A stretch of 64,000 nt of DNA from Eubacterium sp. (GCA_022511225.1 JAFLRZ010000009.1:1-64000), one strand, 5' to 3'. Counted from the first letter of the stretch, positions 1 through 43,341 are shown. Program-made: numbers and translations. The notes: generated by a model not told the origin, from the sequence alone.

Positions 1-1
1 A

Positions 2-52
2 AAGATTTATTCTTCTTGGTCAAAAGCTAAAGTGGTAACAACTAAAAAGTAA
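2..52 (+). CDS. C-terminal end of a fibronectin-type-III-like surface protein (truncated by window edge)
   Basis: Frame 2 reads KIYSSWSKAKVVTTKK*, similar to the Fn3 end YSEWSNKKPVTTK seen in the 43342-44589 protein of this window. Confidence 0.5.
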   Translation, partial: KIYSSWSKAKVVTTKK

Positions 53-58
53 AAATTA

Positions 59-92
59 CGAAAAGCCCCGACAATATATCGGGGCTTTTGTT
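59..92 (+). terminator. Rho-independent terminator
   Basis: AAAAGCCCCGA-caatata-TCGGGGCTTTT followed by T-rich tract. Confidence 0.8.
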
Positions 93-200
93 GTGTGCAA
101 CACATAAGTTAAAATCGGTTTTAAATTGTATTATTATTTTCTTATATGAATCACAAATGTATCTAATGTATGGCAGAATAAATATTGTATAAGAAATATA

Positions 201-332
201 TTAGAAATAATGTCTCAACTTTAAAAAGAGGAATATTAATACTACGATAACGGAACCCCAGAAATAGAACAGTCCAATACCGTAGGCATGTTTTTTTCTG
301 AAATTACCTAATCTCTCAGAAAATCTTTTCAT
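201..332 (-). CDS. 43-aa small membrane protein MKRFSERLGNFRKKHAYGIGLFYFWGSVIVVLIFLFLKLRHYF
   Basis: SD TAAAGGAG 9-10 nt before ATG; basic N-terminus then one hydrophobic helix; directly downstream of the signal peptidase gene; below the ORF-track length cutoff. Confidence 0.65.
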   Translation of the reverse strand: MKRFSERLGNFRKKHAYGIGLFYFWGSVIVVLIFLFLKLRHYF

Positions 333-379
333 TATTTAGAGCTCCTTTATTGTATTCTAAATTTTACTACATCATTTTA

Positions 380-1069
380 TTATTGTATCTTATTTAGATT
401 AGGAAAAAATCTAAAAATTACTTTTCCAATGATATTATCTTCGTTAGTGATGTACTTGTTTTTCCAATATCTTGCATCGAGAGAATTGTTTACATTGTCG
501 CCCAACATAAAATAACAATCATTCTTGACTATATATTGTCCATTTATTTTTTCACAGTAAGTATTTATGAAATCTGCCTTACCAACATAAACATCATTAA
601 TATAACAATTAACCCCATTATAATCAACAGTATCACCAGCTTTTGGAACATAATAAGGTCCAAAAACGCCTTTATAATCTTCTGCAAGGAATGGTTCGTC
701 CAGTACAGAACCATTTATATAAACCTGTCCGCTTTTAATTTCTAAGGTATCACCAGGAAGCCCAATACACCTTTTTACAAGAATTTTATTAGTCGAATCA
801 GGACTTTTGAAAGCGATAATATCCTTCCTTTGAGGAGAGCTTTTCGAGTATGATAGTCTGTTAACATATACCCTATCGCCTGTATTAATGGTAGGTTCCA
901 TTGAGCTACTCGGAATAACACCAAAGAAGCATACGGTGTTTAATAATATTAATAGTGCAAGAGCAAACCAAAATACAATCCTATAAGCACAAGTATTTTC
1001 GATTACATATTGCTTAAAACTATTGTCATTGGTATTATTCTTTGAATCGAATTCTTCATTTTCATTCAT
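380..1069 (-). CDS. lepB: Signal peptidase I
   Basis: IPSSSMEPTI (catalytic Ser), KRCIGLPGDTLEI, YFMLGDNVNNSLDARYW motifs of S26 family. Confidence 0.93.
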   Translation of the reverse strand: MNENEEFDSKNNTNDNSFKQYVIENTCAYRIVFWFALALLILLNTVCFFGVIPSSSMEPTINTGDRVYVNRLSYSKSSPQRKDIIAFKSPDSTNKILVKRCIGLPGDTLEIKSGQVYINGSVLDEPFLAEDYKGVFGPYYVPKAGDTVDYNGVNCYINDVYVGKADFINTYCEKINGQYIVKNDCYFMLGDNVNNSLDARYWKNKYITNEDNIIGKVIFRFFPNLNKIQ

Positions 1070-1782
1070 CGTTATAAATCTCCTTATTTATTTATATCAT
1101 TTTCTTAACTAGAAGTAAAGGCAAAATGAGGTGGACATAACGAATGTGACGACAAAGCAAAAAGCAGGCAGTTAGAGCCTGCTTTTACTTTATTCTAAAT
1201 CTCTCAATAAATTCTTCATTAATATTTGATAAATCATTATTGTGTTCTTTGATATATTTTGCTAAAGCACTTATATCCATATCCCAACTACATTGGAATG
1301 ATATATATCATACTTTTCAATATATTCATCATATTCATTTTGATGTTTACATTTTAAACTTTTGTCGCTCAAAATTATGCTCCTTTATATTTGTTTTAAC
1401 CAATCGAATTTGATAGGTTTGAATTCGAATTAGAAACCAAGAAGTTAGCGAATCACTTACGAGTTAGTTATCAATAATCAATGATAACCAAAATAACAGT
1501 TTTACTCAATAATAAAATCCCTCAATTCTCTTAAAGTAATATCAATTGGTTCTATGCCCTTATCTTTACAATATTTGAAATTGAATGCCCCGAACCGTAG
1601 CTTAATGGCACTCAGCTTTTTACACACTAATACTAAATGACTCGACTTTAAGATTGCATTACAACAACTATTATAACATATAACAACAGTTAAACAACAG
1701 CCAACATTCACGTTAAACAATATACTATATCATCTAAACATTTGGTATTTTGTCAATAAGATATTAGTATGACGGATAGATT

Positions 1783-2292
1783 TTAATAATCTATATCAAA
1801 TTCAACCGTATTATTTGTGACATCTAACTGCAATTGGTAATCATTAATTAGATTTTCAATTTTCTCACATTCATTTTTCACAAACGAACTGTCAAAGTTG
1901 ATGATGTCATATTCTATAAAGTTGCTAGCCCTATTAATTCTGCTGATATGCCTTTCTTTAGGCATTTTTAATGATAAGTTGCTCAACATACGCTTACGCT
2001 CTTGCAATATTGGCAGCATCAAAAGAATCTCATCTATTGTTAATTTTGTAGAACCTACCACAGTCGTTGCATTGAAAAGCTTAATAGCGTGTTTAGTAGT
2101 TCTGATTTTTTCAATAACCTCAGTCAACTCTCTGTAGTTTTCCTCGAAGTTAAAGGCTGGTCTTACAGCCTCCACATCTTCAGATTTTTCAACAGTAAAG
2201 ACGCTGTACTGCTCTTCAAGACTTTGCAATTTGCTCAATTTTTCATTGAGTTTTCGCAGCTCTTTATTAGCTGCTGAACTTGTGAATTTCAT
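1783..2292 (-). CDS. Conserved hypothetical coiled-coil protein, possibly DIP1984-like
   Basis: 169-aa ORF with SD (GAAAGGAG) before ATG; helical composition; weak resemblance only to the DIP1984 family. Confidence 0.55.
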   Translation of the reverse strand: MKFTSSAANKELRKLNEKLSKLQSLEEQYSVFTVEKSEDVEAVRPAFNFEENYRELTEVIEKIRTTKHAIKLFNATTVVGSTKLTIDEILLMLPILQERKRMLSNLSLKMPKERHISRINRASNFIEYDIINFDSSFVKNECEKIENLINDYQLQLDVTNNTVEFDIDY

Positions 2293-2781
2293 TTTACTCT
2301 CCTTTCAATTTTATAATATTTTCATTAAATAACAAAAGCCCAGAGCAATATATAACTGTTCTGAGCTTTATTGATTAACTTATAATTTAATTGTCTCACG
2401 CTTTTACACTTTGTCAAGTAAATTATCAAATATTTTGAAATTTTAATAACATCAAAATAAACTGTATTTTACTTTTTCAACAGTAACATATAAAAAAATT
2501 TAACAACTAAAATAATCAATAAACATATCATAGAAGACTTTATGTTGAGTTGCTTTATAATTTATGATATTATGTTAAAGTAATATTTGACATACAAAAT
2601 AATTATCAATTTAAATTTCGATAAAAACATTGAAAATGATAATTCACTTTATGAAGGATAACAATTGATGAAACAGGAGCAAAATTCATCAAAAAATTGC
2701 ACGTCTTGAAAAAATTGCAAAAGTTGAAAACAAAAAAAATTGAGTCGATTCAGATGATTAAGAAATTTAAGGAAAATAAAA

Positions 2782-3753
2782 ATGGAAAATAAAAAATTAG
2801 ATAGTCAATATATAGAATCACTAGAATATATAAGGTGTAATTCACATTTGATTCAATCGACGCTTAAAGACTACTCGCATCAAATAACATCTTTGCAGTC
2901 TTCATTAAAACCGATTGTTGAAGCAACATCAATAATAAAAGATATTGCAAGAACAATTAAATTATACTCATCTAATATAGACGTACTGAAAGGCATAAGT
3001 TCTATTTATTTAGAAATTTCTAAAACAATTCCGCCAGTAGTTGAATGGTTTAGATCTTTCAATTTTTCTCAATTACTTGCCCCGTTACTAGATATTGATT
3101 CACGGCATATAGATGAATTACACACAATTTATCTTATGGCCATGTATGAATGTAAATGGTTTCCATATGCTGGCTTAATAGCCGATTACACACTTTTTGA
3201 AACGGTTGATGAAATTATTGCCACAAGCCGTGGAATAAGTAAACGTAGAGAGAAAAGAATTGACAATGCAATACTTGCTTATTATACCGATAAAAAAGTT
3301 AAGATCCTTAGGAGTAACTGGCAAAAATTAGATTTAGATTACTGCTTGAAAAAGTCTTTACGTCAGTCAATTGATGCTTATTTTCGTGGCGAATATGTGT
3401 TGACAATTTCTTGCCTTACAACCATGTGGGAAGGACTTATTTATATAAAAGCACATAACGCACTACCAGAGGAACGTCAAAGACAAAAAATGAGCATCAC
3501 GAAACAGGAATTATCCGAACTTACTATGGCAAATGATTACGATTTAATAATTAGTGATTACTTTAATAATTTTATAGTATCACAGTGCAATAATGTTACA
3601 GAGGTGGTAGAAGGTGTTCCAAATCGACATGGCACATCTCACAGTTGGTATAAAAAATATCCTAACAAAAAAGCTGCACTAAATGCAATTTTGTTAACTG
3701 ATTTTATAATAAATCTAAAACCTATTACGGTTTCGAAAAACGAAAGTAATTGA
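2782..3753 (+). CDS. Hypothetical protein with C-terminal HEPN-like R-X4-H motif
   Basis: 323 aa; C-terminal ...GVPNRHGTSHSWYKKYPNKKAALNAILLTDFII.. resembles HEPN/Abi-type domains. Confidence 0.6.
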   Translation: MENKKLDSQYIESLEYIRCNSHLIQSTLKDYSHQITSLQSSLKPIVEATSIIKDIARTIKLYSSNIDVLKGISSIYLEISKTIPPVVEWFRSFNFSQLLAPLLDIDSRHIDELHTIYLMAMYECKWFPYAGLIADYTLFETVDEIIATSRGISKRREKRIDNAILAYYTDKKVKILRSNWQKLDLDYCLKKSLRQSIDAYFRGEYVLTISCLTTMWEGLIYIKAHNALPEERQRQKMSITKQELSELTMANDYDLIISDYFNNFIVSQCNNVTEVVEGVPNRHGTSHSWYKKYPNKKAALNAILLTDFIINLKPITVSKNESN

Positions 3754-3929
3754 TAAGTGGAAAATAGAATATTAAATTAGAAATATTAAAAGCGATAATT
3801 GACTTGTTTAAGCAGCTGAACTATGCAAAGGAAATATAAATCGTGAATATTAAAAGATGTACTGATGCTTATTGATAAAAAGCAGAGTATCTGCTATAAT
3901 AAACTTAATATTGTTAGGGAGGTGAGACG

Positions 3930-4961
3930 ATGAACGGTCATCTGATGCATAAAAATGATATTGTATCAAAAATTGAAAACGGTATTGTTGTTGATAACAG
4001 TAATATGTTACCGCTTCAACTAAGGAAAGGTGCGAGCATTGAAGGCTGGATGGAATCTCGTGCGATTGACAGGCATAGGACTAATTCCAGACTGCTTAAA
4101 AAGGTTATGCGCATAACTGATACAAGTGATATTGCAACTGTTCTTCGTGCTCACGCAGCCACTGTTACGGATAACTATTGGTTCAAGGCAGACGGTGAAG
4201 AAATCGAGTATAAAGATATTCTTTTTAATGATGACAGCTATGCTGATGTTGCACTTTTCGGTACTTTTGAAAATGTGTCAAGTGCTGAAAAACTTGATTC
4301 AAAAAACTCTAAATCGCCAGAGCTTACGAATATAGGAAGCTTTGAAAAGTGTTGGAAGCTCCATGACGGGAAGTGGTTTATGTATAAAAGGGAAACTGAG
4401 TTTGAGCAGTTTTCTGAGATATTCATTTGCAGACTCGGACAGCACTTTGGCTTTGATATGGCGGTATACGAAAAGCACGACGACTGCGTTATCACTGAGG
4501 ATTTTACAGAAAACAAAAAGTATGACTTAGAGCCAGCAGTTGCTTTTGTCGGAGATAACGAGGATTACTCATTAAGCTACAGCAAATTGTTTGAATTTGC
4601 GCCTGAAATTGCAAGTGACTATGTTAAGTTAATCTTTATGGATACGCTTTGCTTCAATATGGATAGGCACACAAATAACTATGGTGTTTTGCGTGATGCT
4701 AACACAGGCGAAGTCGTAAAACTTGCTCCAAATTTTGATAACAACATTGCACTTATTTCAAGAGGCTACACTTCAACAGATGTTAGCGATAAGGACTTGT
4801 TGATTGCGCTTTGGAATGAATTTATCAACAAGAGTGACGTAAAATTTGAAAAACCGATCCTCGAAAGAGAAACGGTTCAGAATATTGCAAACAGCATAGA
4901 TATTGATGTTGATAAAAAATATGTAGTAGACTTCGTAATGAATAGGTATCAAAAAATATAA
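3930..4961 (+). CDS. HipA-like kinase domain protein
   Basis: FNMDRHTNNYGVLRDANTGEVVKLAPNFDNN matches HipA-C catalytic/metal-binding loops; SD GGGAGGTGAGACG upstream. Confidence 0.7.
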   Translation: MNGHLMHKNDIVSKIENGIVVDNSNMLPLQLRKGASIEGWMESRAIDRHRTNSRLLKKVMRITDTSDIATVLRAHAATVTDNYWFKADGEEIEYKDILFNDDSYADVALFGTFENVSSAEKLDSKNSKSPELTNIGSFEKCWKLHDGKWFMYKRETEFEQFSEIFICRLGQHFGFDMAVYEKHDDCVITEDFTENKKYDLEPAVAFVGDNEDYSLSYSKLFEFAPEIASDYVKLIFMDTLCFNMDRHTNNYGVLRDANTGEVVKLAPNFDNNIALISRGYTSTDVSDKDLLIALWNEFINKSDVKFEKPILERETVQNIANSIDIDVDKKYVVDFVMNRYQKI

Positions 4962-5108
4962 TGCTCTTTCAAAGAGAGGCGTTTAACTAAAAATGATTAC
5001 CAAAAAAGGCAAATTGGTAACTAAATTGTCGACTAATCCCACAGATTGTATTTATTATTCACGGTAATATAGGCGTATATCGCAAAATCAAGTCTGGACT
5101 CTCGCACC

Positions 5109-5194: not shown

Positions 5195-5238
5195 AAACAG
5201 GCTCAATGTCAAATTCAATTTTGACGTTGAGCCTGTTT
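5195..5238 (-). terminator. Terminator of the ATP-grasp/CDP-glycerol operon
   Basis: Inverted repeat AAACAGGCTCAA(t)GTCAAA...TTTGAC(g)TTGAGCCTGTTT just past the stop of the 5252-6490 gene. Confidence 0.75.
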
Positions 5239-5251
5239 TAATTATATTAAT

Positions 5252-6490
5252 TTATTTGAACAAAATATCAAGCAGTCTTTGTGATGCCTTTCCGTCATTC
5301 ATCTGATTATATTCAGCATTGAAACGTGAAAGCGACGCTTTGTTTCGTTCTTCGTCATAATCAATTTTTTCAATTGCATCAACAAGCTCTGCCTCTGTTT
5401 TGAGTACTTCACCGGGCAGACTGTTTATATCAATGTAAAAGCCTCGCACCTCATCACGATACTCCTCCATATCATACATATAAAACAGCATTGGTCTGCC
5501 GAGAATTGCATAATCAAAGAACACACTTGAATAATCGGTAATCAGCAAATCGGAGATAACGTAAAGCTCGTTTATATCGTCATAATCAGATGCATTATAA
5601 ACAAAACCGCTGTATGCATCAAAATCAAATTCATTTGCAACAAGATAATGCGCTCTGAACAGAATTATATAATCCTTCTCAAGCTTCTCCCTGAAATAGT
5701 CAAAATCAACAGGATTATTATATACATATCCGTTATGAGCATCGTGCTGATTATCTCTCCACGTTGGGGCATAGAGAATAATTTTTCTCTTGTCATTTTC
5801 AAGACCGAGCTTTTTTTTGATTTTCTCAATATCGCCGCTGTCATAATTGACAAGGTAATCATTTCTTGGATAGCCTATCTGCAAAACCGCATCCTTCTTG
5901 CCGAATTTCTCAAGCCTCCATGCCGTTATAAATTTTTCGGTTACAAAATCACACGGTGACAGAAGATAATCAAGTCGCTTTGCATCATTTCTGTATTTGC
6001 TTCTGATTTCTGTAAGTGAATTCATTGCGTTATTGGAGTTTTCAATATCATATCCAAGCTTTTTCAAAGGTGTTCCGTGCCAACACTGAACGTAAACCTG
6101 CTCACTGCTCGGAGTCCAGAAATCAAGGGCTCTGGAATTAAAAATCCAGTATTTAGCCATATGCAGATATTTTTCACATTCCTTGCTCTTGTTTCTTATA
6201 ACCGTCGTGTTTCTGTTTGCCTCAAGAAAGCTGTATTTCTCAGGCTCATCAAACAGCCAGACAAACCTATAATCAGCATACTTATCATCGCAGAGCATTT
6301 GCTCATAAACCGCCTTTGGACTGCAAGCATAGCTTTTTCCGTTATATGAAGCGAAAATAACAAGCTTTTCGTCAACCTTAGACGCTGCTCCGGCAGTTTT
6401 ATAGCTCACTCTGCGAATCAGATTGCGAGTGTTTCGCATAAAGATACGCAGGAATGTTGATTTTTCAGCAATTTTGATATGTGTTTTCAC
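5252..6490 (-). CDS. CDP-glycerol:poly(glycerophosphate) glycerophosphotransferase family protein
   Basis: QCWHGTPLKKLGYD, LYAPTWRDN, DLLITDYSSVFFDYAILGRPMLFYMYD motifs of the TagB/TagF family. Confidence 0.9.
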   Translation of the reverse strand: MKTHIKIAEKSTFLRIFMRNTRNLIRRVSYKTAGAASKVDEKLVIFASYNGKSYACSPKAVYEQMLCDDKYADYRFVWLFDEPEKYSFLEANRNTTVIRNKSKECEKYLHMAKYWIFNSRALDFWTPSSEQVYVQCWHGTPLKKLGYDIENSNNAMNSLTEIRSKYRNDAKRLDYLLSPCDFVTEKFITAWRLEKFGKKDAVLQIGYPRNDYLVNYDSGDIEKIKKKLGLENDKRKIILYAPTWRDNQHDAHNGYVYNNPVDFDYFREKLEKDYIILFRAHYLVANEFDFDAYSGFVYNASDYDDINELYVISDLLITDYSSVFFDYAILGRPMLFYMYDMEEYRDEVRGFYIDINSLPGEVLKTEAELVDAIEKIDYDEERNKASLSRFNAEYNQMNDGKASQRLLDILFK

Positions 6491-6518: not shown

Positions 6519-9116
6519 TCAGTCTAATTTGTTTTCCTGTTCTGCTTCTTTTCTTTGTTTTATCTGAATCGCCTTTCTCATAATAACGGCAATAGGATAA
6601 AACATTTTGAAATGTCTGAATGCCTTTTTATCGTTGTCATCCTTAATGAAATGAATATCGGCAGTTTCCATATATTCCTTGTATTTTTCTCTTGAAAGTC
6701 TGCCGCCGACGTATTCCTCGATGAGAACCTTTTCACTTACAAAGGTTTTTCCTGTTTCCTCAACCTTAACGTCGAGGTCAAGAGGAATACCCTTAATCAT
6801 ATAATCCGCGAACATTCCCGGCAGATTTACTCCGCACTCAGTGAAGGCATAGCCGGATGCACCAAAGCGCAAATTGAGTTCAACAAAATACATTTTGCCG
6901 TCTGCGGTTTCAATAAGATCAACGTCATAAAGACCGTCGAAATTGAGGGTTTCTATAAACTTCAGAATATCATCTATAAGCTCCTGATGCATTGAGCAAG
7001 GAAGAGTTCTGCCAACAACGGCAACACCTCTGTGCTCCTTTTGCCCTCCTTGTTCTGCAACGAAGAAGCCCGGACCGATAACACCATTCTTTGTGCTGAC
7101 CCCCAAGAGGGAATATTCTTTATTAATTTCAACGAAGTCCTCAACAAGCATTTCAATAGGCTTCCTTTTGGAGAACTTAGTCAAATAGCCTCTCAGCTCC
7201 TCCTCGTTCTCGCATTTTCTCATTCTGCCCTTTGAGCTGTTCTTGCTGATATTAGGCTTCATAAAGCAGGGATACGTTACGGTTTCAGGTATCTCGAACT
7301 CTCCCTTATATGCCTGAATAACACATGAATTGAGAACGGGAAGATTAGCTTCAATTGCAAGATTCTTCTGAGCCTCCTTGCTCATAAGATTGCATATTCC
7401 GTCCTGCTCATTATTGATGTTCGGAATGAGATAATATTTGCTGAGCTTGTCATAGTAATGGTCTGCAACGTACGCAACAAGGTCGTCAGCAGGGATGAGC
7501 AGCATTTTTCTGTTAGGATCGGCAAGCTTTATAAGGCGCTTGACAATCCTTCTGTTCTTTCTCCTTGAAACGCATACATAATAACCCTTGATATACTCGC
7601 TATATGTATCCGGCTGCATTTTCTTGAGCAGATTTGACTGCTTGGGTCGAACCTGAAATATTCTCAGAACCTCAACCTCATATCCTGCCTTTCCAAGTGA
7701 CCTCGCCATAGTGAGATTCGAGCAGTAGTTTCTGCCCGAAACAAGCACTCTCGGAAGAGGAGAATTTGGATCTCTTCTGTTCTTTTTCTTTGTCTGAGGA
7801 TAGCTTAAAAGGTGATATTTCACGGGTCGGAGCACCTTCTTTAAGCGATACGTCAGCACCTTGTAAATAGATTTTATTGTTCTTTTTACAGTTTTCTTTA
7901 TCTTATTTTTAAAACGTCTTCTCTTTGCTCTTTTGATTTCCTTTGAGAAATATTCATAGGGAAGAGGGTCTTGCTCATCACGAAGAAGGGTTATATCGGA
8001 ATTATCAATGCATTCCTTAAGCTCCTTCTTGCTCATAAAGCCCTTGATGTGGTCCTCCCATGCAATTTTCTCATAAATAAAGGTTTTGTTATATTCATCA
8101 ACCTTTTCCTCTTCAGGAGTGTGGGGCTCGCCATAAGCCTCCTTAACGAACAGCTCAGGAAGATTGACTCCGCTCTTGAAATATGAGTAGTTCGGACCAC
8201 CGCTTCTGAGGTTAACCTCGTTGAAATAGACCTTGTCGCCCGATATTGCAAGCTCAAAATCAAACATTCCGAAATAATGGAAGCTCTGCATCATCTTTAT
8301 TATCTTGTCCTGCAAATCTCCCATTTCCTCAAACGGAACAAGCTTTCCCGACAAGGTTACGCCCTTTTCATACTGAGCAACGTTTGTCTTTTTTATAATA
8401 GCGGGAATTATTATTTTATCATCAAAGCATATTCCGGAAAAGTCTATCTCGTTGTCTATCTCAAGAAATTCCTGAACGAGAACGCTGCGGTTTGCAAACT
8501 TCCTGCGAAGTCTGTTAAGATGCCTATACAGCTCCTCCTCACTGTTACAGCGAGCCATTTCTTTTTTATATCCCGTTATGCTCTCAACCGGCTTAACAAA
8601 GCAAGGGTAAACCATATCGCTCGGAATTTCGATTTCAGGGTTGTCCAAAGGTATAGTCCATTCAAGCGGAGTTGGTATTCCGGCACGTTTTGCAAGCTCG
8701 CTTTGAACGATTTTGCTCATATGCACAGTCATAGAACCTTCTCCGCCGCCAATAATTTCAGGCATTATGAATATTTCAGACAGTGCATTTCTGTTTAAAT
8801 CCATAACTGATGCAGTGTAGTCATCAGTAGGGAAGAGAACGGGCTTGTAGCCAAGCTCCATATCTCCGTATTTAAGCAGCTCATCAAGAAATTCGACGTC
8901 GTTGCCGTCCTTAACCTTCCTCGAAACAATCTCAACCGAGTTTCGAACGTATTTACTGCATCTTGCAATTTCGGATTTGCCCTTTCTGAAAGCACTTGCA
9001 ACCAAATCAACAGTGTATCCTGCCGAGCCGAGCGACCTTATAACACTGAGTCCCGTTGCATAATTTCTTGAAAGAACTACTACTAAATTTTTATTTGATT
9101 CCATTTTGATCTCCAA
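6519..9116 (-). CDS. Double-domain ATP-grasp protein (fused A and B modules)
   Basis: Two N-terminal Rossmann-like motifs (VLSRNYATGLSVIRSLGSAGYTVDL; VSGRNYCSNLTMARSLGKAGYEVEV), each followed by ATP-grasp motifs (CFVKP..; FNEVNLRSGGPNY and FVELNLRFGASGY). Confidence 0.9.
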   Translation of the reverse strand: MEIKMESNKNLVVVLSRNYATGLSVIRSLGSAGYTVDLVASAFRKGKSEIARCSKYVRNSVEIVSRKVKDGNDVEFLDELLKYGDMELGYKPVLFPTDDYTASVMDLNRNALSEIFIMPEIIGGGEGSMTVHMSKIVQSELAKRAGIPTPLEWTIPLDNPEIEIPSDMVYPCFVKPVESITGYKKEMARCNSEEELYRHLNRLRRKFANRSVLVQEFLEIDNEIDFSGICFDDKIIIPAIIKKTNVAQYEKGVTLSGKLVPFEEMGDLQDKIIKMMQSFHYFGMFDFELAISGDKVYFNEVNLRSGGPNYSYFKSGVNLPELFVKEAYGEPHTPEEEKVDEYNKTFIYEKIAWEDHIKGFMSKKELKECIDNSDITLLRDEQDPLPYEYFSKEIKRAKRRRFKNKIKKTVKRTIKSIYKVLTYRLKKVLRPVKYHLLSYPQTKKKNRRDPNSPLPRVLVSGRNYCSNLTMARSLGKAGYEVEVLRIFQVRPKQSNLLKKMQPDTYSEYIKGYYVCVSRRKNRRIVKRLIKLADPNRKMLLIPADDLVAYVADHYYDKLSKYYLIPNINNEQDGICNLMSKEAQKNLAIEANLPVLNSCVIQAYKGEFEIPETVTYPCFMKPNISKNSSKGRMRKCENEEELRGYLTKFSKRKPIEMLVEDFVEINKEYSLLGVSTKNGVIGPGFFVAEQGGQKEHRGVAVVGRTLPCSMHQELIDDILKFIETLNFDGLYDVDLIETADGKMYFVELNLRFGASGYAFTECGVNLPGMFADYMIKGIPLDLDVKVEETGKTFVSEKVLIEEYVGGRLSREKYKEYMETADIHFIKDDNDKKAFRHFKMFYPIAVIMRKAIQIKQRKEAEQENKLD

Positions 9117-9137
9117 ATCAAATTTTTTATCTTTCTT

Positions 9138-10739
9138 TTATTTTGAGCTGTTAAAATCATAATACTGCTCAAGCACGCATTTCATTCCTTTTTTCTCAGT
9201 TGCATAAGGAGTGGAAAGCAAAACTATACCGGGCATTGCGTTGACTTCAATAAGCTCAGGACCGTCTACAGATACTGCGATATCCCATCCTAAATATCCC
9301 TCGATATGCTTCTGCGTGCATGCAGTAGTTACCATATCAATAATCTCTTTAAAATACGGAATTTTGAAGCCTTTAATCGTAGTCTTGGTCAGAGGATGCT
9401 CTTCAAAGGCATTTCCGTACTGGTCTGCACCGTTGGTTACAACGATACCCGTTTCCTTGTCAACAACCGCGCACATTCCGCCGCTGTGGAAATTATCTAC
9501 TATTGATTTTCCTCCGCCGATTCTGAATGAGGTATAGGCAATGTCAAACATTTTTCCGTCGGAGGTAACAGGTTCATGATTTGATGAAACAGTTACGACT
9601 CTGATAGTGTTAACAGAGCTGTCAGCCATTTTGTTGATATCCTCATGCTGCTTAACAAACTGCTCAACAACACCCTCGGGATAATTCTTCAGCTTGTTAT
9701 ACACCTGCGAATGATTGCCTTCACTGAGGTCAAATGCCTCAACACCAAAGCCCTTGTGTCCTTGAAGCGGCTTATAAATAATTCTGTCGCTCTGAGCGAA
9801 TTTTTCAACAAATTCTGCCTCACTTATCTTTGTGTTAACACACCAAGGTCTGATAATACATTCAGCAAAAAAGTCGTTTGTTAATTCCTTGTTGCAAAGA
9901 ACAGAAACAAAGCTTCTGTCAATATCATATTTTTTGCCGACCTGCTTTGAATTATATGTTAATGCAACGCTGTCCTGCTCTTCATCTGTCAGCTCATAGA
10001 AGTGATAAATAAAATATTCCTTGGTGGTGCAGTGAGTTCTTTCTTTTGCAATTTTAACCTTTTCCTTCGTTTCTTCTCTGCTCCAGCCTGTAGCGTTCAT
10101 TATTTTGCCGCGATATTCCTCAACCTCTGCTCTTCTTGCCTTCTTATTTTCTTCTAAATATTCCTTGTAGATTCTGTTGTGTTCCTCTTTGGGATATTTA
10201 TAAAGTTGAAGTCTAATATAGTTTTTATTGCTGATTCCAAGCTTGTTTTTTGCCCTTTTTAACTGTTTTTCAGCCTGCTTGTGAGTGCATGAGGTTGCGA
10301 GCATAATGGTTTCTACTCTGCGCTCGAATACTTCTTCGTTTGCCTTAATCTCAGAAATCATCTTCTCAAGCTCAGTATTCAGACCTGATTCGCTGTTGAA
10401 AATACTTTTGCTGAAAGGCGTGTCAATACGGTGCATCAGGGTAGCCATTGCTTTGAAGGCGTGCTTTTCGTCCCAATCCATTTTTTCGGCTATCAGTTTA
10501 GCTGTTTTTTGCAATATCCCATATTCCATTGCAATATCTTCCTCTTCGTAAATATAAAAGTTAAAAGCATTGTAGTGTTTAAAAGTTATACCGTATTTCT
10601 TTTTTACGGATTTCATCTTGGCTTTAGCCTCGTCAAAGCTCCATCCGGTTTTATTAACAATACTGTTTATATCGTCAATCTGCTGCTTAGACAGCTTTCT
10701 AATGTTATTTTTAGGTTCTGCCTTTGATAATTCAAACAT
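9138..10739 (-). CDS. Sugar-transfer-associated ATP-grasp-like protein with three N-terminal ~50-aa repeats
   Basis: C-terminal IIYKPLQGHKGFGVEAF...VNTIRVVTV...HSGGMCAVVDKETG...GYLGWDIAVSVDGPELIEVNAMPG. ATG at 10739 has SD AAGGTG; the ORF track extends to a GTG at 10748. Confidence 0.85.
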   Translation of the reverse strand: MFELSKAEPKNNIRKLSKQQIDDINSIVNKTGWSFDEAKAKMKSVKKKYGITFKHYNAFNFYIYEEEDIAMEYGILQKTAKLIAEKMDWDEKHAFKAMATLMHRIDTPFSKSIFNSESGLNTELEKMISEIKANEEVFERRVETIMLATSCTHKQAEKQLKRAKNKLGISNKNYIRLQLYKYPKEEHNRIYKEYLEENKKARRAEVEEYRGKIMNATGWSREETKEKVKIAKERTHCTTKEYFIYHFYELTDEEQDSVALTYNSKQVGKKYDIDRSFVSVLCNKELTNDFFAECIIRPWCVNTKISEAEFVEKFAQSDRIIYKPLQGHKGFGVEAFDLSEGNHSQVYNKLKNYPEGVVEQFVKQHEDINKMADSSVNTIRVVTVSSNHEPVTSDGKMFDIAYTSFRIGGGKSIVDNFHSGGMCAVVDKETGIVVTNGADQYGNAFEEHPLTKTTIKGFKIPYFKEIIDMVTTACTQKHIEGYLGWDIAVSVDGPELIEVNAMPGIVLLSTPYATEKKGMKCVLEQYYDFNSSK

Positions 10740-10749
10740 AAAAATCACC

Positions 10750-11949
10750 TTATCCTTTGACTTTATATAATATTCTTACTAACGCAGATAAAAAATAAAA
10801 TTTTCTGAAGTATTCATATGGCTTCATATCATCTTTGCTTTTTACAAAAAAGATGTCTGCACTGTTCATATATCTTCTCACCTGAGAAGCACTTATATCT
10901 CCTCTTGCAAACTCCTCCATCAGCACTTTTTCACTGATAAACAGCTTGGATTCCTTAACCCTTGCATTCTCGTCAGCAGGTTTGCCTTTCATAATATAAT
11001 CGGCATACATACCGTAGAGGTTTACTCCAAGCTCATTTAGTGCATAGGTTGAGGCACCCGCCCTGAAATTGATTTCAACAAAATACATTTTGCCGTCTGT
11101 ATTCTCAATTAAATCTATATCAAACATTCCGATATAGCCTATGCCTTCAACAAAGCGGCTGCATTTTTCTATTATCTCATCAAAACCATCGGGATTCACG
11201 GTTTCACCCATAAGAGCAACGCCCTTTCTGTCATGATGACCGCCTTCAACAACCCTGAACACTCCTGACGTGATTGCTCTGTTTCCTGTTGAAAATCCGA
11301 GGAGGGAATATTCATTCTTTATTTGAGCATACTCCTCGGCAAGCATTTCAAAATCGCCATTGCCTGCATATGCAGCAAGAACCTTAAAAAGCTCATTTTG
11401 ATTTTCGCATTTTCTCATTGCGTCCTTTGTGCTTTTCATACTCACATTAGGCTTAATAAAGCAAGGATAATGCACGTCATCGGGAATACTGAATTTTCCG
11501 TTTTTCGATTTAATAAGACAGCTCTGAAGCAAAGGCAGCTTGTATTTTTCAGCCTGCCTCTTCTGCTCGTTCTTATCCATCAGTCTTATTATTTCTCCTC
11601 CTGTGCCGTTCACACATGGCGCAAAAAAATATTTGCTAAGTTCATCAAGGCTTCTGTCTACAGCACAGCAAACGTAGTCATCAACCGGAACAAGAAGCTT
11701 TTTCGTCCCTTCGGCAAATTCAAGCAGACAGTCTGCTATTGCGTTCTCGTCCGAACCGACAACAAGCTCCCTGTATGAAGAAACGTACTTGCTTTTTGCG
11801 TCGGGCTTCATCGTTCTGAGGAATTTCATTGCGTTTGGCTTTTCCTTAAAAACCTTAATTACCTCGACCTCATATCCTGCCGAGCCAAGTGCTCTCGCCG
11901 TTGTGAGAATATTGCAGTAATTTCGACCTATAACAACAGCTTTTTCCAT
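10750..11949 (-). CDS. ATP-grasp protein (standalone B module)
   Basis: VIGRNYCNILTTARALGSAGYEVEVIKVF; CFIKPNVSMKSTK; FVEINFRAGASTYALNELGVN. Close paralogue of the second half of the 6519-9116 protein. Confidence 0.9.
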   Translation of the reverse strand: MEKAVVIGRNYCNILTTARALGSAGYEVEVIKVFKEKPNAMKFLRTMKPDAKSKYVSSYRELVVGSDENAIADCLLEFAEGTKKLLVPVDDYVCCAVDRSLDELSKYFFAPCVNGTGGEIIRLMDKNEQKRQAEKYKLPLLQSCLIKSKNGKFSIPDDVHYPCFIKPNVSMKSTKDAMRKCENQNELFKVLAAYAGNGDFEMLAEEYAQIKNEYSLLGFSTGNRAITSGVFRVVEGGHHDRKGVALMGETVNPDGFDEIIEKCSRFVEGIGYIGMFDIDLIENTDGKMYFVEINFRAGASTYALNELGVNLYGMYADYIMKGKPADENARVKESKLFISEKVLMEEFARGDISASQVRRYMNSADIFFVKSKDDMKPYEYFRKFYFLSALVRILYKVKG

Positions 11950-13160
11950 TATTCTCTTCCCAAAGCCATCAGAGCTCTGTGCTTGACGGCGCTTAATCTT
12001 ATTCTTTTATAGAAGCTCCTGCCCGGAGCAGGGTCGTTTTTATCAGTAAGGAGAGTGAAATCAGAATCCTTAATGCATTTATTCAGCTCATACCTGCTCA
12101 TATGGGAGTGAATATAATCCTCCCACGCAACCTTCTCATAAACAAAGCTCTTGCCAAAGGACTTAATCCTTTCCTCAGCCTCGCTGTGTCCTTCTCCGGT
12201 AAGCTCTTTTATTAATATATCGGGAATATTGACTCCGCACATATAATAAGCATAGTTCGGGCCACCGCTTCTAAGGTTGATTTCATTGAAATAAAGCATA
12301 TCACCGCACGCGAACAGCTCCATATCAATCATCCCGAAATAGTGAAGCGACCTGAGCATGTTTTCAAGCTTTTCCTTGCTATCTCCCAAAACCTCAGCAT
12401 CAAGCATAACACCCGACATTGTTACACCCTGCTCGTGTTTTGAGATTCTCGTTTTCTCAATCACACCGGGGATAATAATTTTTTCGTCAAGGCATAAGCC
12501 TGATAAATCATATTCAATATCAATATTAAGATATTCTTGAACAATAATTTCTCTGTCGCTGAAAAAAAGCTTCATAGCATTAAGGTGTTTCGAAAGCTCA
12601 CTTTTGTCATAGCAAACTCTCATCTCGGACTTGCTTCCGTTAATGCTTTGAGCAGGCTTCACAAAACAGGGATAAATAATATCCTTTGGAATAATAATAT
12701 CCCTTCTTAAATCAATAACCCATTCTGAGATTGTTGAAATTCCGCACTCCCTTGCAAGCTCGCTTTGCCAGCTCTTATCCATAGCCTTATGAAGCGGAAT
12801 CGGGTTTTCGCCCACTGTCACAGGCATAAGAAAATGCTTGCTGAGAGCATCATAATTATCTGCAACGATTGAAGCGGTGTAGTCATCGGCAGGGAAAAGA
12901 ACTATCCTTTCACCTGAGCCTGCATATTTCATCAGCTCACTTATAATGCCCTCTCCGCTGTCTCCTTGAATCTTCCTTGACAGAACCTCAACCGATTTGC
13001 GAACGTATTTACTGCAAGCTGCTATAACCGAGCTGCCGCTTTTCTTAACGCTTGCAATCAAATCAACAGTGTAGCCTGCAGAGCCGAGTGAACGTATAAC
13101 TCCAAGCCCCGTTGAATAATTCCTTGAAAGCACTATAACGAGAGGTTTTGAACTGCTCAT
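11949..13160 (-). CDS. ATP-grasp protein (standalone A module)
   Basis: VLSRNYSTGLGVIRSLGSAGYTVDLIAS; FNEINLRSGGPNYAYYMCGVN. Start reset to MSSSKPL at 13160 (SD AGGAG); overlaps the next gene as TAATG. Confidence 0.9.
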   Translation of the reverse strand: MSSSKPLVIVLSRNYSTGLGVIRSLGSAGYTVDLIASVKKSGSSVIAACSKYVRKSVEVLSRKIQGDSGEGIISELMKYAGSGERIVLFPADDYTASIVADNYDALSKHFLMPVTVGENPIPLHKAMDKSWQSELARECGISTISEWVIDLRRDIIIPKDIIYPCFVKPAQSINGSKSEMRVCYDKSELSKHLNAMKLFFSDREIIVQEYLNIDIEYDLSGLCLDEKIIIPGVIEKTRISKHEQGVTMSGVMLDAEVLGDSKEKLENMLRSLHYFGMIDMELFACGDMLYFNEINLRSGGPNYAYYMCGVNIPDILIKELTGEGHSEAEERIKSFGKSFVYEKVAWEDYIHSHMSRYELNKCIKDSDFTLLTDKNDPAPGRSFYKRIRLSAVKHRALMALGRE

Positions 13161-13268
13161 AAGAACTCCTAATACTATATACTCCCTAATATATATACTA
13201 TAACAAATAATTATTATAATATATAACGTAGATAATGTCAATTTATAAAACGTTGATTTAATAAAGAA

Positions 13269-13302
13269 AAGCTCTCATCACACAAAAAACGTGTGATAAG
13301 AG
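13269..13302. terminator. Terminator-like hairpin downstream of iorB
   Basis: GCTCT-cATCACAC-aaaaaac-GTGTGAT-aAGAGC inverted repeat. Confidence 0.6.
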
Positions 13303-13351
13303 CAAATCTAATCAGTGATTCTCAAATATTATGTTATATATAGAGATGTTT

Positions 13352-13927
13352 TTACGCACTTTGTCCAAGTGCAAAGGCCTTTTTATTGAGTTCAAGGAAT
13401 TTTTGCGGTACTATTGCCTCTAATGCAGACAACCACTTATCCTCGGATATATCGGGAAAATACTTCGAAAGTCTGCCCATAAGCGCAATATTAACTGCTT
13501 TTGATGAGCCTGCCTCTTCAGCGAGCTTTAAGAAATCCTTTGCATCTACCTTTGCCCCTGCCTTCTGCATTTTTTCAATAAGATTTTCGGGATAAACTGC
13601 ATTACCCACGATAACGGGCATAGGCTCCATTTCCTGAACGTTGGTAATGATTTGCCCGTCAGGCTTTAGAAACTCAATCCATCTTGCTGATTCAAGCTTT
13701 TCAAATGACACTATAATATCAGCTTCACCTTTATCAATGACGGGTGAATAAACCTTATCACCGTATCTTACGTACGTGACAACTGAGCCTCCGCGCTGGC
13801 TCATTCCGTGTACCTCGGACACTTTAACGTCGTAACCCTGATCAAGCAGAACTTTACCCAAAAGCTTGCTTGCAAGGAGCGTTCCTTGTCCGCCGACACC
13901 TACAATCATAATATTCTTTGTTTCCAT
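13352..13927 (-). CDS. iorB: Indolepyruvate ferredoxin oxidoreductase beta subunit
   Basis: IMIVGVGGQGTLLASKLLGKVLLDQGYDVKVSEVHGMSQRGGSVVTYVRYG. Confidence 0.93.
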   Translation of the reverse strand: METKNIMIVGVGGQGTLLASKLLGKVLLDQGYDVKVSEVHGMSQRGGSVVTYVRYGDKVYSPVIDKGEADIIVSFEKLESARWIEFLKPDGQIITNVQEMEPMPVIVGNAVYPENLIEKMQKAGAKVDAKDFLKLAEEAGSSKAVNIALMGRLSKYFPDISEDKWLSALEAIVPQKFLELNKKAFALGQSA

Positions 13928-14004
13928 ATTAATTCATATAGCCTTTCTTAAAAATCACATATTCTTGTTTCAGCCTAACAAGAGGTGACGAATTGTTCAT
14001 ACTG

Positions 14005-15738
14005 TTATTTTTCCTGATCGTCCAATGCACCGAATTTACACATCTGTGTGCAAACCTTACAGCCAATACAAAGCGTACCGTCTATTTGTACCTTTTTGTC
14101 CTTTACGGATATTGCAGGGCAACCAATCCTCATACAAGCCTTGCAGCCCACGCATTTATCAGCATTTGCTTTAAGCGGTGGATTGTGGACAGTGCCTTTA
14201 ATCATAACGCAAGGTCTGCGACTGATGATAATTGACGGCTCGTCGGCAGAAAGCTCTTCTTTGAGAACTGTTTCAACCTCGCTGAGATTATATGGGTCAA
14301 CAACTCTGACTCTGTTAAATCCAACTGCCTTGCAAAGTGCCTCTAAGTCAACCTTGCTTGCAGGCTCACCGCGAAGATTTTTGCCCGTTGTCGGGTTCTG
14401 CTGGTGACCTGTCATACCGGTTATGGAATTATCAAGAATAATAACGGTTGAATTACTGCCGTTATATGCAATATCTGTTATACCGGTAATACCTGAATGA
14501 ATAAAGGTTGAATCACCGATAACGCCAACGCTATTCTTTTCTCCTTCCTTTCCCATAGCCTTGTTAAAGCCGTGAAGACCGGAACAGGAGGCACCCATAC
14601 AAACATTTAAATCCATTGCATTAAGGGGAGCAACTGCGCCGAGAGTATAGCAACCAATATCGCCGTATACCATACATTTATTCTTGCTGAGTATGTAGAA
14701 CACACCTCTGTGAGGGCAGCCTGCACACATAACAGGTGGTCTGTTTGGTATTTCATCATCAATTGTTATAGTTGATGGCTCAGTCATGCCCATACATCTT
14801 CTGACAAGATTTTGTGAAAACTCACCGCATATCGGGAAGGTATCCTTACCGCTGACGCTGATGCCTAATTGCTTACAATGATTTTCTATAATAGGGTCAA
14901 GCTCCTCAAGAACAATAACCTTGTCAACCTTGCTTGCAAAGTCAATAATAAGCTTTTCCGGAAGGGGATAAATCATACCCAGCTTTAAGATGCTGACACT
15001 ATCGCCAAACACCTCTTTTGCATACTGATATGAGGTTGATGAAGTGATAATACCGATTTTAGTATCATTCATTTCAACCTTATTAAGCTCACAAGATTCA
15101 GCCCACTTGATTAAATCCTTCGTTCTTTGCTCTACACGCACGTGTGCGTTTCGTGAATTTGCCGTCATCATTACCTTTGTGGGGTCTTTAACGTATTTAA
15201 CCTGCTCGGGAACAAATCTGTCCTCAGGCTCAACAACACTTTGTGAGTGAGAAACTCTTGTGCACATTCTCAAAAGCACGGGAGTGTTATATTTTTCGGA
15301 AATCTCGTATGCTTTTTTTGCAAATAATCTTGCTTCCTCTGAATCTGACGGCTCAAGCATGGGAATTTTTGCCGCAATAGCGTAATGACGGGAGTCCTGC
15401 TCATTTTGTGAGGAGTGCATACCGGGGTCATCGGCAACACAAATTACAAGACCTGCATTTAACCCTTGATATGAAATTGTAAAGAGGGGATCAGCTGCAA
15501 CGTTAAGTCCAACGTGTTTCATTGCGCAGGCAGCACGTCTACCGCCAAGAGTAGCACCATGTGCCACCTCGAGAGCCACCTTTTCATTTGGCGCCCACTC
15601 ACAAAAAATTTCATCATACTTGGCTGCTTCCTCGGTAATCTCAGTACTTGGAGTGCCCGGATAGCTTGAAATAACAGTGCATCCTGCCTCATAAAGACCT
15701 CTTGCAACAGCCTTGTTGCCAATCATTAATTCTTTCAT
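14005..15738 (-). CDS. iorA: Indolepyruvate ferredoxin oxidoreductase alpha subunit
   Basis: SYPGTPSTEITEEAAKY; GDIGCYTLGAVAPLNAMD; C-terminal CXXCXXC 4Fe-4S motifs CVGCKACMRIGCP and CIGCKVCTQMC. Confidence 0.95.
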   Translation of the reverse strand: MKELMIGNKAVARGLYEAGCTVISSYPGTPSTEITEEAAKYDEIFCEWAPNEKVALEVAHGATLGGRRAACAMKHVGLNVAADPLFTISYQGLNAGLVICVADDPGMHSSQNEQDSRHYAIAAKIPMLEPSDSEEARLFAKKAYEISEKYNTPVLLRMCTRVSHSQSVVEPEDRFVPEQVKYVKDPTKVMMTANSRNAHVRVEQRTKDLIKWAESCELNKVEMNDTKIGIITSSTSYQYAKEVFGDSVSILKLGMIYPLPEKLIIDFASKVDKVIVLEELDPIIENHCKQLGISVSGKDTFPICGEFSQNLVRRCMGMTEPSTITIDDEIPNRPPVMCAGCPHRGVFYILSKNKCMVYGDIGCYTLGAVAPLNAMDLNVCMGASCSGLHGFNKAMGKEGEKNSVGVIGDSTFIHSGITGITDIAYNGSNSTVIILDNSITGMTGHQQNPTTGKNLRGEPASKVDLEALCKAVGFNRVRVVDPYNLSEVETVLKEELSADEPSIIISRRPCVMIKGTVHNPPLKANADKCVGCKACMRIGCPAISVKDKKVQIDGTLCIGCKVCTQMCKFGALDDQEK

Positions 15739-15757
15739 TTTGTTTCTTACCTTCTTC

Positions 15758-17392
15758 TTATGAATTATTTTGGCTTGCTACCAGATGGTCGGCACCATAT
15801 CTCTTACGCAGAGTCGGTTTTTCAATTTTACCTGTAGCATTTCTTGGGATTTCATCAAATATTACTTTTTTAGGACGCTTATATCTTGCAAGACCAAGGC
15901 AAAATTCGTTGATTTCTTCCTCGGTACATTCTGTTCCGTCCTTGATTTCAACAATTGCAGCAGTAATTTCGCCAAGTCGCTTGTCTGCAACACCGATAAC
16001 TGCAACATCCTTGATTTTGTCAAACTTTCTTAAGAAGTCCTCTATCTGAACGGGATATATATTTTCGCCGCCGCTGACAATAACATCCTTTTTTCTATCA
16101 ACAAGGAAATAAAAGCCGTCCTCATCCTGCATTGCCATATCTCCTGTAAAAAGCCAGCCGTCTTTAATAGTTTCGTCAGTTGCTTCAGGATTGTTATAGT
16201 AACAAGTCATAACTCCCGGTCCTTTAACACAAAGCTCACCAACGTCGCCCTGCTTAACAGGAATACCGTTTTCGTCAACTATCTTACATTCCCATCTGTA
16301 ACCGGGAATACCGATTGCGCCAACCTTATGTACGTTACCAACACCAAGATGAACACAACCGGGACCGGTTGATTCAGAAAGACCGTAGTTTGTGTCATAA
16401 TCATGATGCGGGAAAATTTCGAGCCAACGCTTAATAAGTGACGGAGGAACGGGCTGAGCACCGATATGCATCAGCCTCCACTGGGACAGCTGATATTCAC
16501 TAAGATTAATATTACCGCTGTCAATAGCATCAAGAATATCCTGTGCCCATGGAACAAGGAGCCATGCAATCGTGCAGCCTTCGTTCGACATTGCCTCAAG
16601 AATTGTCTTTGGCTTTGCACCTTTCAAAAGCACTGCTTTACTGCCGGCACAAAGGCTTCCCATCCAGTGAAACTTTGCACCCGTGTGGTAGAGTGGGGGA
16701 ATACAAAGAAACGTATCGTTACGGGTAATTGAGTGGTGAATCATTTCCATTTCAGCCGCTTGTGAAAGGCTTTGGTGCTTGTGTAAAATAGCCTTTGGAA
16801 ATCCCGTAGTACCTGACGAAAAATAAATTGCACCGTAATCCTCGTCAGTAATAGGAATATTTGGGGTAATACTTGAGCAATCAGCCACAAGCTCACGATA
16901 GCTTTCTGCAAAATCAGGGCAGTTATCTCCAACGTATATAAGAAGTCTGCCCTTGCTGAGTCTGTCTGCATTAGCCTCAATTCTGCCGATAAATTCCTTG
17001 CCGAATACAATCATATCTGTATCTGCAAGCTCTGCGCAATATAGAATTTCATCAGCATCATATCTGAAGTTGAAGGGAACTGCAATAGCACCGGTCTTAA
17101 GTATTCCAAAATAGATAGGGAGCCACTCAAGGCAGTTATACATAATTATTGCAACCTTGTCACCCTTTCTAATGCCTCTGCTAATAAGCATATTAGCAAA
17201 TCGGTTAGCCTTTTCGTCAAAGACGTGCCACGTAATTTCTCTCCTGTACGGCTCGTATCTGCCGGGCTCTATAAGGTCATATTCCTTCCATGTAACTCTG
17301 CGATTGTCAACCTCCTCAGGATTAAGCTCAACAAGAGCCACCTCGTCAGGATATAATTTTGCATTTCTTTCAAGCAAATCAATAACAGGCAT
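15758..17392 (-). CDS. AMP-forming acyl/aryl-CoA synthetase
   Basis: AIYFSSGTTGFPKAILHKHQSL; NYGLSESTG; GWLFTGDMAMQDEDGFYFLVDRKKDVIVSGGENIYP; ATGKIEKPTLR. Confidence 0.93.
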   Translation of the reverse strand: MPVIDLLERNAKLYPDEVALVELNPEEVDNRRVTWKEYDLIEPGRYEPYRREITWHVFDEKANRFANMLISRGIRKGDKVAIIMYNCLEWLPIYFGILKTGAIAVPFNFRYDADEILYCAELADTDMIVFGKEFIGRIEANADRLSKGRLLIYVGDNCPDFAESYRELVADCSSITPNIPITDEDYGAIYFSSGTTGFPKAILHKHQSLSQAAEMEMIHHSITRNDTFLCIPPLYHTGAKFHWMGSLCAGSKAVLLKGAKPKTILEAMSNEGCTIAWLLVPWAQDILDAIDSGNINLSEYQLSQWRLMHIGAQPVPPSLIKRWLEIFPHHDYDTNYGLSESTGPGCVHLGVGNVHKVGAIGIPGYRWECKIVDENGIPVKQGDVGELCVKGPGVMTCYYNNPEATDETIKDGWLFTGDMAMQDEDGFYFLVDRKKDVIVSGGENIYPVQIEDFLRKFDKIKDVAVIGVADKRLGEITAAIVEIKDGTECTEEEINEFCLGLARYKRPKKVIFDEIPRNATGKIEKPTLRKRYGADHLVASQNNS

Positions 17393-20333: not shown

Positions 20334-20339
20334 ATCAAG

Positions 20340-20374
20340 AAAAAGAGAAGGAACGTTGAGTTCCTTCTCTTTTT
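20340..20374. terminator. Terminator
   Basis: AAAAAGAGAAGGAAC-gttga-GTTCCTTCTCTTTTT. Confidence 0.85.
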
Positions 20375-20560
20375 GACGCTTAAGGTATAGTGGAAAATAA
20401 ACAAGAACAGATAACCGATTAACCTAGTATATCCGGCTGTAATATATCCTAATTTAGAAATAAACAGAGCGTTAAGCGTTACATTTATTACTGCACCGAT
20501 TAATATGGTATGGTAATAACTGTTATGCCTTTTTGAAAAATGTTGCAAACAGTATACCAT
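20375..20560 (-). pseudogene. Remnant of a polysaccharide flippase (Wzx-like) gene
   Basis: YYHTILIGAVINVTLNALFISKLGYITAGYTRLIGYLFLFIFHYTL resembles the C-terminal TM region of Wzx-type flippases; the rest is missing. Confidence 0.5.
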
Positions 20561-20633: not shown

Positions 20634-21060
20634 TTATTTGTTTAATGCTTCCAAAATCATATTATAATTTCTTTCGCAAGCCTTGAAATCATCGTACTTG
20701 AACCAAAAACTAAACTTAGTTTTATATAGTTCATCTTCTTTAAGCGGGTGTGTAAGGTTATATTGCAACGATTTTTTCATCTCATCCCAATTATACACAA
20801 CATCGCCGCAGCACATATTTTGATCGGTTCGTAAACAAAGCCTCTTTCTCTATCATATTGCTCAAAATCTGCAAACAGATATATAACCGGTCTGTGTGCC
20901 AATAAAAAGTCAACCGATATAGATGAGTAATCGGATACTAAAATGTCGGCTTTGTTGAGTAAATCATAGATATATTGTTAACAGCGTCAAGCTTATCGGT
21001 GCAGCCTATAGTGTCGTTTCGTGAAAAACCGTTAAATACCAGGTTTTCATAAAATGATTT
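20634..21060 (-). pseudogene. Degenerate CDP-glycerol glycerophosphotransferase gene (C-terminal part)
   Basis: Reading across frames gives FYENLVFNGFSRNDTIGCTDKLD...NKADILVSDYSSISVDFLLAHRPVIYLFADFEQYDRERGFVYEPIK//CCGDVVYNWDEM..., with frameshift(s). Confidence 0.75.
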
Positions 21061-43057: not shown

Positions 43058-43169
43058 GGTTGAGGAATTCAAACCGAAGCCGCCTCACAGCGGTTATTTC
43101 AGTTGCTTTTTGCCCTTTTCGCTTTGATGGGCACCAATACTGTCTGATTGCCAAAGACGGAAAGCGCCA

Positions 43170-43204
43170 AAAAAAGAAGGAACTCGATGTTCCTTCTTTT
43201 TTCT
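43170..43204. terminator. Terminator
   Basis: AAAAAAGAAGGAAC-tcgat-GTTCCTTCTTTTTT. Confidence 0.85.
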
Positions 43205-43341
43205 TTTGATGATTTAGACGGACGAGCAATGCTTGCCCCAACTACAATAAAAGCTGTCTTTGTAAAATTTTGGCGCGGTTATGCGCTTTTTCGACAGTCT
43301 GAGAAGATATAGGAGAAAAAACTTTCCTATATCTTCTTTCC

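Follow-up and report, generated by a model that had tools for sequence, protein, structure and literature searches.

Does the coexistence of a gene pair and its fused counterpart in one operon reflect a recent local duplication, or do the two versions have separate roles? The question is raised by a 64,000-nucleotide stretch of the gut bacterium Eubacterium sp. (GCA_022511225.1, JAFLRZ010000009.1:1-64000; hereafter the window), in which two adjacent genes for ATP-grasp proteins, A and B, lie close to a gene whose product resembles A in its N-terminal half and B in its C-terminal half. We refer to A and B of the window as classes A1 and B1, and to the fused halves (FA and FB) as A2 and B2; a third A-type domain is called A3.

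The operon and its ATP-grasp domains

Five minus-strand genes follow each other from 13160 to 5252 (Table 1). The start of B overlaps the stop of A (TAATG), and the remaining intergenic gaps measure about 10-33 bp. The promoter-like site in front of A stands after a terminator-like hairpin (13271-13303). Given the overlap, the short gaps, the perfect sigma-70-like promoter and the 19-bp hairpin at the end, the five genes look like a single transcription unit. The genes, strands and coordinates of the pair and the fusion had been read correctly in an earlier note; two start codons were revised. For the fused gene ATG 9104, preceded by TTTGGAG, is more likely than TTG 9116, so that the protein more likely has 861 residues than the 865 first given. 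For the gene between B and the fusion, the sequence makes ATG 10739 the more likely start.

Table 1. Features of the operon and its flanks in the window
Feature	Position	Strand	Remarks
Promoter-like site, TTGACA-17-TATAAT	13213..13241	-	12/12 consensus positions; 53 bp upstream of gene A; consensus match only
A (class A1), ATP-grasp amidoligase-like protein, 403 aa	11949..13160	-	
B (class B1), ATP-grasp protein, 399 aa	10750..11949	-	
ATPgrasp_ST protein, 533 aa	9138..10739	-	PF14397, E 1.6e-38
Fused A2-B2 tandem ATP-grasp protein, 861 aa	6519..9104	-	
A2 half (FA), residues 1-388	7941..9104	-	51.9% identity to A
Basic linker of fused protein, residues 389-450	7755..7940	-	conserved
B2 half (FB), residues 451-861	6522..7754	-	43.6% identity to B; B2 clade 100/100
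TarF-type CDP-glycerol:poly(glycerophosphate) glycerophosphotransferase	5252..6490	-	PF04464, E 1.7e-107
19-bp hairpin, short T tails, terminator-like, 3' of last gene	5195..5238		

Pairwise comparison bears out that A mirrors the N-terminal and B the C-terminal half of the fusion: global identity is 51.9% for A and FA (z ~196 against shuffled sequences) and 43.6% for B and FB (z 137). The values between classes are lower (A/B 30.2%, FA/FB 33.2%), and by their sequences A and B are distant paralogues of each other. Every motif quoted earlier for the two modules is present. All four domains keep the E-x-N motif, as had been claimed, and the other catalytic residues are intact as well; in the A2 half these are D282, E296, N298, R300, K131 and K171. 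Since E-x-N, the second metal-binding Asp, the two ATP-site lysines and the Arg after E-x-N are invariant in 43 homologous domains, no half looks degenerate. An ATP-grasp fold with a catalytic Lys/Lys and Asp...Glu-x-Asn site places the proteins in the ATP-grasp amidoligase superfamily. With PF02222 (cut-off 27) the fused protein scores 64 bits and B 27.1; A, at 22.5 under the cut-off by itself, is 52% identical to the A2 half. Among the Pfam and NCBIfam matches no curated family names this gene set.

The linker was correctly described as highly basic. Of its 62 residues 24 are K/R and 2 are D/E (P ~1e-5 relative to the composition of the whole protein), and it is predicted to form a long helix up to residue 432, followed by a YPQ-x-K motif.

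The gene between B and the fusion adds a fifth ATP-grasp protein, ATPgrasp_ST, with about four helical 'TGW' repeats at its N-terminus. The repeat, about 60 residues long (TGWxxExAxxxxKxAxxxxGIxxKxYxxYxFWxxPxxEQ), occurs in the ATPgrasp_ST protein and in A3 (window 9930-10739; L007:1171-2943; L011:13809-15812). It has no convincing match in Pfam and is perhaps a docking module.

Several other features of the window deserve mention. Beside the operon, positions 1-5000 are AT-rich (GC 0.29) and encode an orphan HipA_C-like protein (3930-4961, slightly under the Pfam cut-off) and unknown proteins at 2782-3753 and 1783-2292; this is possibly a separate island. Indolepyruvate ferredoxin oxidoreductase-like genes and an AMP-binding ligase occupy 13352-17392; iorA is patchy within the genus (7/31 genomes, own included). 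A hairpin-forming intergenic sequence at 20337-20381 recurs at 43162-43205 as a 45-bp imperfect inverted copy (89%), which may be a small repeat element or a shared terminator.

Probable amidoligases in a surface-polymer setting

A scan of 84,980 species genomes resulted in nine related loci, most of them from Anaerovoracaceae; they belong to Emergencia (Anaerovoracaceae), one Lachnospiraceae MAG and Clostridia/Bacillota MAGs. They share a set consisting of A1, B1, fused A2-B2, usually A3, ATPgrasp_ST and TarF-type glycerophosphotransferases. The conserved neighbours in relatives are TarF, a TarB-like protein, a TagD-like cytidylyltransferase and an ABC-2 exporter. In the window's operon the top NCBIfam match of the last gene is TarF, at 308 bits below the cut-off of 550; its product is 60-66% identical to TarF of L005, L007, L008 and L013. 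Elsewhere in the window's genome TarB/TarF-type genes occur on contig C8, and a TagD orthologue (71%) on C3. In two relatives' loci there are PGA_cap proteins, of which one is joined to ATPgrasp_ST. The window's operon contains neither an amino-acid racemase nor uronic-acid or amino-sugar genes.

Two side observations concern this setting. The PGA_cap fusion at L009:4738-7539 combines ATPgrasp_ST, Big_2 and PGA_cap in one 933-aa protein without a clear hydrophobic segment, whereas PGA_cap is usually extracellular. On the minus strand of the window, 20828-20977 holds a glycerophosphotransferase fragment surrounded by stops (PF04464, 51.5 bits over 50 positions; 41% to TarF over 39 residues), apparently a decayed second surface-polymer gene.

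On balance we favour the view that A1, B1 and A2-B2 (and A3) are successive, non-redundant amidoligases for a glycerophosphate surface polymer, on which they would assemble or attach amino acids or a short peptide. For teichuronopeptides and O-antigen, ATP-grasp ligases encoded together in operons have been described as catalysing successive ligations (PMC4431377), and there is biochemical proof that a TupA-like ATP-grasp domain amidates a capsule sugar (PMC11800379). Sequential ligation of amino acids is favoured by these two precedents together with the catalytic residues, the polymer-gene neighbours and the racemase/MurE-like setting of distant relatives (see below). Surface-polymer operons that contain several ATP-grasp ligases are an already known kind. 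The setting is also what the genes share with ATPgrasp_ST (PF14397)/TupA-like amidoligases such as the C-terminal domain of Cj1438. In contrast to these, A, B and the fusion carry a pre-ATP-grasp domain at the N-terminus and show a pairwise architecture, and none of the three matches PF14397 or TupA; only the neighbour at 9138-10739 matches PF14397.

Alternatively, A and B could act like the halves of carbamoyl-phosphate synthetase (CPS), taking one small substrate through two successive ATP-dependent steps to a soluble activated or amidated intermediate, with the second pair working on a different substrate and no peptide being built on a polymer. CarB is likewise a tandem of two homologous ATP-grasp halves (30-33% identity in A/B and FA/FB) that is encoded by fused or split genes, and the split CPS.A and CPS.B of Aquifex form a complex (PMC6022934). 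Carbamoyl-phosphate synthetases are the top PDB fold matches in both halves, ahead of biotin carboxylases, an L-amino-acid ligase and PurK, and CarB models rank high among the NCBIfam matches; a viral fold library gave generic ATP-grasp matches only. However, the CarB scores lie far below the cut-offs (TIGR01369, 69.9 versus 1027 bits; NF003671, 58.4 versus 599), identity is only ~12-13%, and A2-B2 has 861 residues instead of ~1070 and contains the basic helical linker. The halves fit CPS separately and not in the CPS arrangement (TM 0.30, rmsd 27), a comparison in which the half-to-half orientation of the model is not confident. Furthermore, the operon stands amid surface-polymer genes and not pyrimidine or arginine genes. 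We consider a CPS-like pair unlikely.

Still less probable is that the ligases add D-amino acids to peptidoglycan precursors, and not to a teichoic-type polymer, by the chemistry of AslA. This ATP-grasp D-aspartate ligase, with racD in the same operon (PMC4155827), resembles our proteins as a carboxylate-amine ligase of cell-wall precursors, a comparison made by description; the matches of our proteins included no curated AslA model. The distant single-domain relatives at L019-L021 adjoin a MurE-like ligase, and L019 and L020 also have an aspartate/cysteate-type racemase; their identity, however, is only 20-24%. Neither a racemase nor a Mur gene occurs in the window's operon or in the conserved neighbourhood of close relatives, where TarF, TagD and the ABC-2 exporter are found instead. 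In their own right, the single-domain ATP-grasp genes with the MurE-like ligase at L019-L021 are a possible D-amino-acid ligase operon in Clostridia; the racemase scores at L019 and L020 exceed the cut-off of the cysteate racemase CuyB.

The Bacillus L-amino-acid ligase (3vot) matches one half structurally (TMt 0.60 and 0.58) at 13-15% identity, but it is a single-domain enzyme of dipeptide synthesis with no tie to surface polymers.

Age of the duplication and distribution of the set

The phylogenetic relationship of the domains was analyzed with the A and B domains rooting each other; a root through the distant single-domain proteins L019-L021 was judged unreliable, with a branch of 4.65 changes per column. 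All A domains separate from all B domains (100/100), and the pairing by class in the earlier note, A1 with A2/A3 and B1 with B2, holds. A2 plus A3 (100/100), B2 (100/100) and A3 (100/99) are clades. For A1 and for B1, monophyly has p-AU ~0.4, a value that does not separate a clade from paraphyly.

The earlier note had also expected A and FA, and B and FB, to be each other's closest relatives. This failed: AU tests reject a window-only sister pair of A and FA (p 1.2e-5) and of B and FB (p 9e-4), and the matching classes elsewhere are closer. The nearest relatives of A are A1 genes in other genera, with 57-61% identity to A1 of L005, L006, L008, L011 and L012. B is 54% identical to B1 of L015, the ATPgrasp_ST protein 51% to its homologue in L011, and the fused protein 58-65%, over its length, to fused orthologues from seven genomes. 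Because window-specific sister pairs are rejected, the A-B unit was duplicated before the loci diverged. Judged from these sequences, the duplication is old, and its two products were passed on together, by inheritance or by transfer. The proposed duplication with fusion is therefore right in kind, an A-B unit having been duplicated and one copy fused, and wrong as a local event.

A1 and B1, split or fused, occur together with A2-B2 in all eight relatives' genomes searched; in G566 and G570 they are spread over different contigs. The co-occurrence means that the copies do not look redundant, and relatives keep the two versions side by side, which points to a need for both. A recent tandem duplication confined to the window and leaving redundant copies, as the single operon and the retained catalytic residues might suggest, is highly improbable in the face of the AU tests and this coexistence.

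The set itself is rare. It has no further copies in the window's own genome and is missing from 59/59 congeners and 119/119 further family members drawn. Among 399 genomes drawn from the phylum it was found in none except the window's own, and 391 genomes drawn from the class contain only distant single-domain relatives (28-31% identity). Of 249 genomes drawn from the family of G570, to which both Emergencia genomes belong, 7 have the set, compared with 1 of 250 from the family of the Lachnospiraceae MAG. Among the sampled congeners that have the upstream iorAB genes, the closest (iorA 83% identity) lacks the operon and has a glmS-like gene after iorB. Horizontal gain in the window's lineage is the best explanation of this distribution, and on this basis the operon was probably acquired horizontally. 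There is no compositional sign of transfer; the GC content of the operon (0.38-0.42) equals that of the rest of the window (0.40). As vehicles, viruses and plasmids were rejected: viral contigs contained no relative, and the only plasmid match (25%) was on a 2.6-Mb replicon.

Recurrent fusion, probable association of A with B and a proposed pathway

The domains are joined in several ways in the relatives. A single chain comprises A1 and B1 in L005, L006 and L008, and separate genes encode them in the window, L009, L010 and L013; on the trees the fused state of A1-B1 requires two changes. A2-B2 is fused in all eight relatives' loci bearing A2, with L006 followed up to the contig end. A3 was found in seven relatives' genomes and is absent from the window's genome and G570. 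It forms one chain with A2-B2 (1369-1412 aa) in L005, L008 and L013, and L006 looks alike, interrupted by the contig end; in L007, L009 and L010 it is a separate protein. After A3 come the helical repeats that are otherwise N-terminal in the ATPgrasp_ST protein. The conserved A2-B2 linker is basic, with YPQ-x-K at its end, while the A1-B1 linkers of the fused relatives are shorter and different; with such linkers the A1-B1 and A2-B2 fusions look independent.

The suggestion that A and B act as a heterodimer is upheld in part. Since three relatives have A1 and B1 in one protein, A and B very likely cooperate, and the repeated fusion of both pairs together with the overlapping genes makes it likely that A and B associate. 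Fusion implies functional association and matched amounts; it is not proof of a fixed dimer. AlphaFold2 predicted the halves of the window's A2-B2 well (pLDDT 88) with uncertain mutual placement (pTM 0.54), and the packing in the A1-B1 fusion of L008 is equally uncertain (pLDDT 88, pTM 0.56). No confident interface was thus obtained, from shallow alignments of 16 to 21 sequences, too few to exclude one. A rigid A:B heterodimer is conceivable, with the odds somewhat against it.

Taken together, the operon A1, B1, ATPgrasp_ST, A2-B2 and TarF would encode distinct, probably sequential carboxylate-amine ligases for a teichoic-acid-like polymer. Duplication of an ancestral A-B two-enzyme unit would have preceded the spread of the set among Clostridia. 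One copy would have stayed as adjacent genes (A1, B1) that fused later in some lineages; the other would have become the fused tandem enzyme A2-B2, whose conserved basic helix may keep the enzyme at the anionic polymer or at the membrane. A2 would have been copied again to give A3 in most relatives. Each domain is expected to use ATP to convert a carboxylate to an acyl phosphate, which is then joined to an amine; in this way A and then B, and likewise A2 and B2, would add successive amino acids, while TarF-type enzymes would make the polyol-phosphate chain. Here we infer the amino-acid substrates and the target polymer from context; the order of steps and a physical A:B complex are likewise proposed.

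An extended version of this pathway is more speculative, and we consider it rather improbable. A relay of four to six different ATP-grasp domains, free of a nucleic acid template, would build a defined short peptide on polyglycerophosphate, the order of residues following the order of the fused domains and the 'TGW' repeats docking the ligases. The product would be a teichoic acid of gut Clostridia with peptide decoration, of a type not yet described.

In the searchable literature we found no description of a twice-represented A-B pair with recurrent fusion and a conserved basic linker. The recurrent fusion (constant for A2-B2, in some genera for A1-B1, in several for A3-A2-B2) and the strict co-occurrence suggest one multi-step pathway, in which case the walls of this little-studied group of gut Clostridia may hold an undescribed peptide-decorated glycerophosphate polymer. 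With its naturally split and fused forms the system is well suited to asking whether paired ATP-grasp enzymes pass on an intermediate. If such decorations vary through horizontal transfer, they could affect recognition by phages and by the host.
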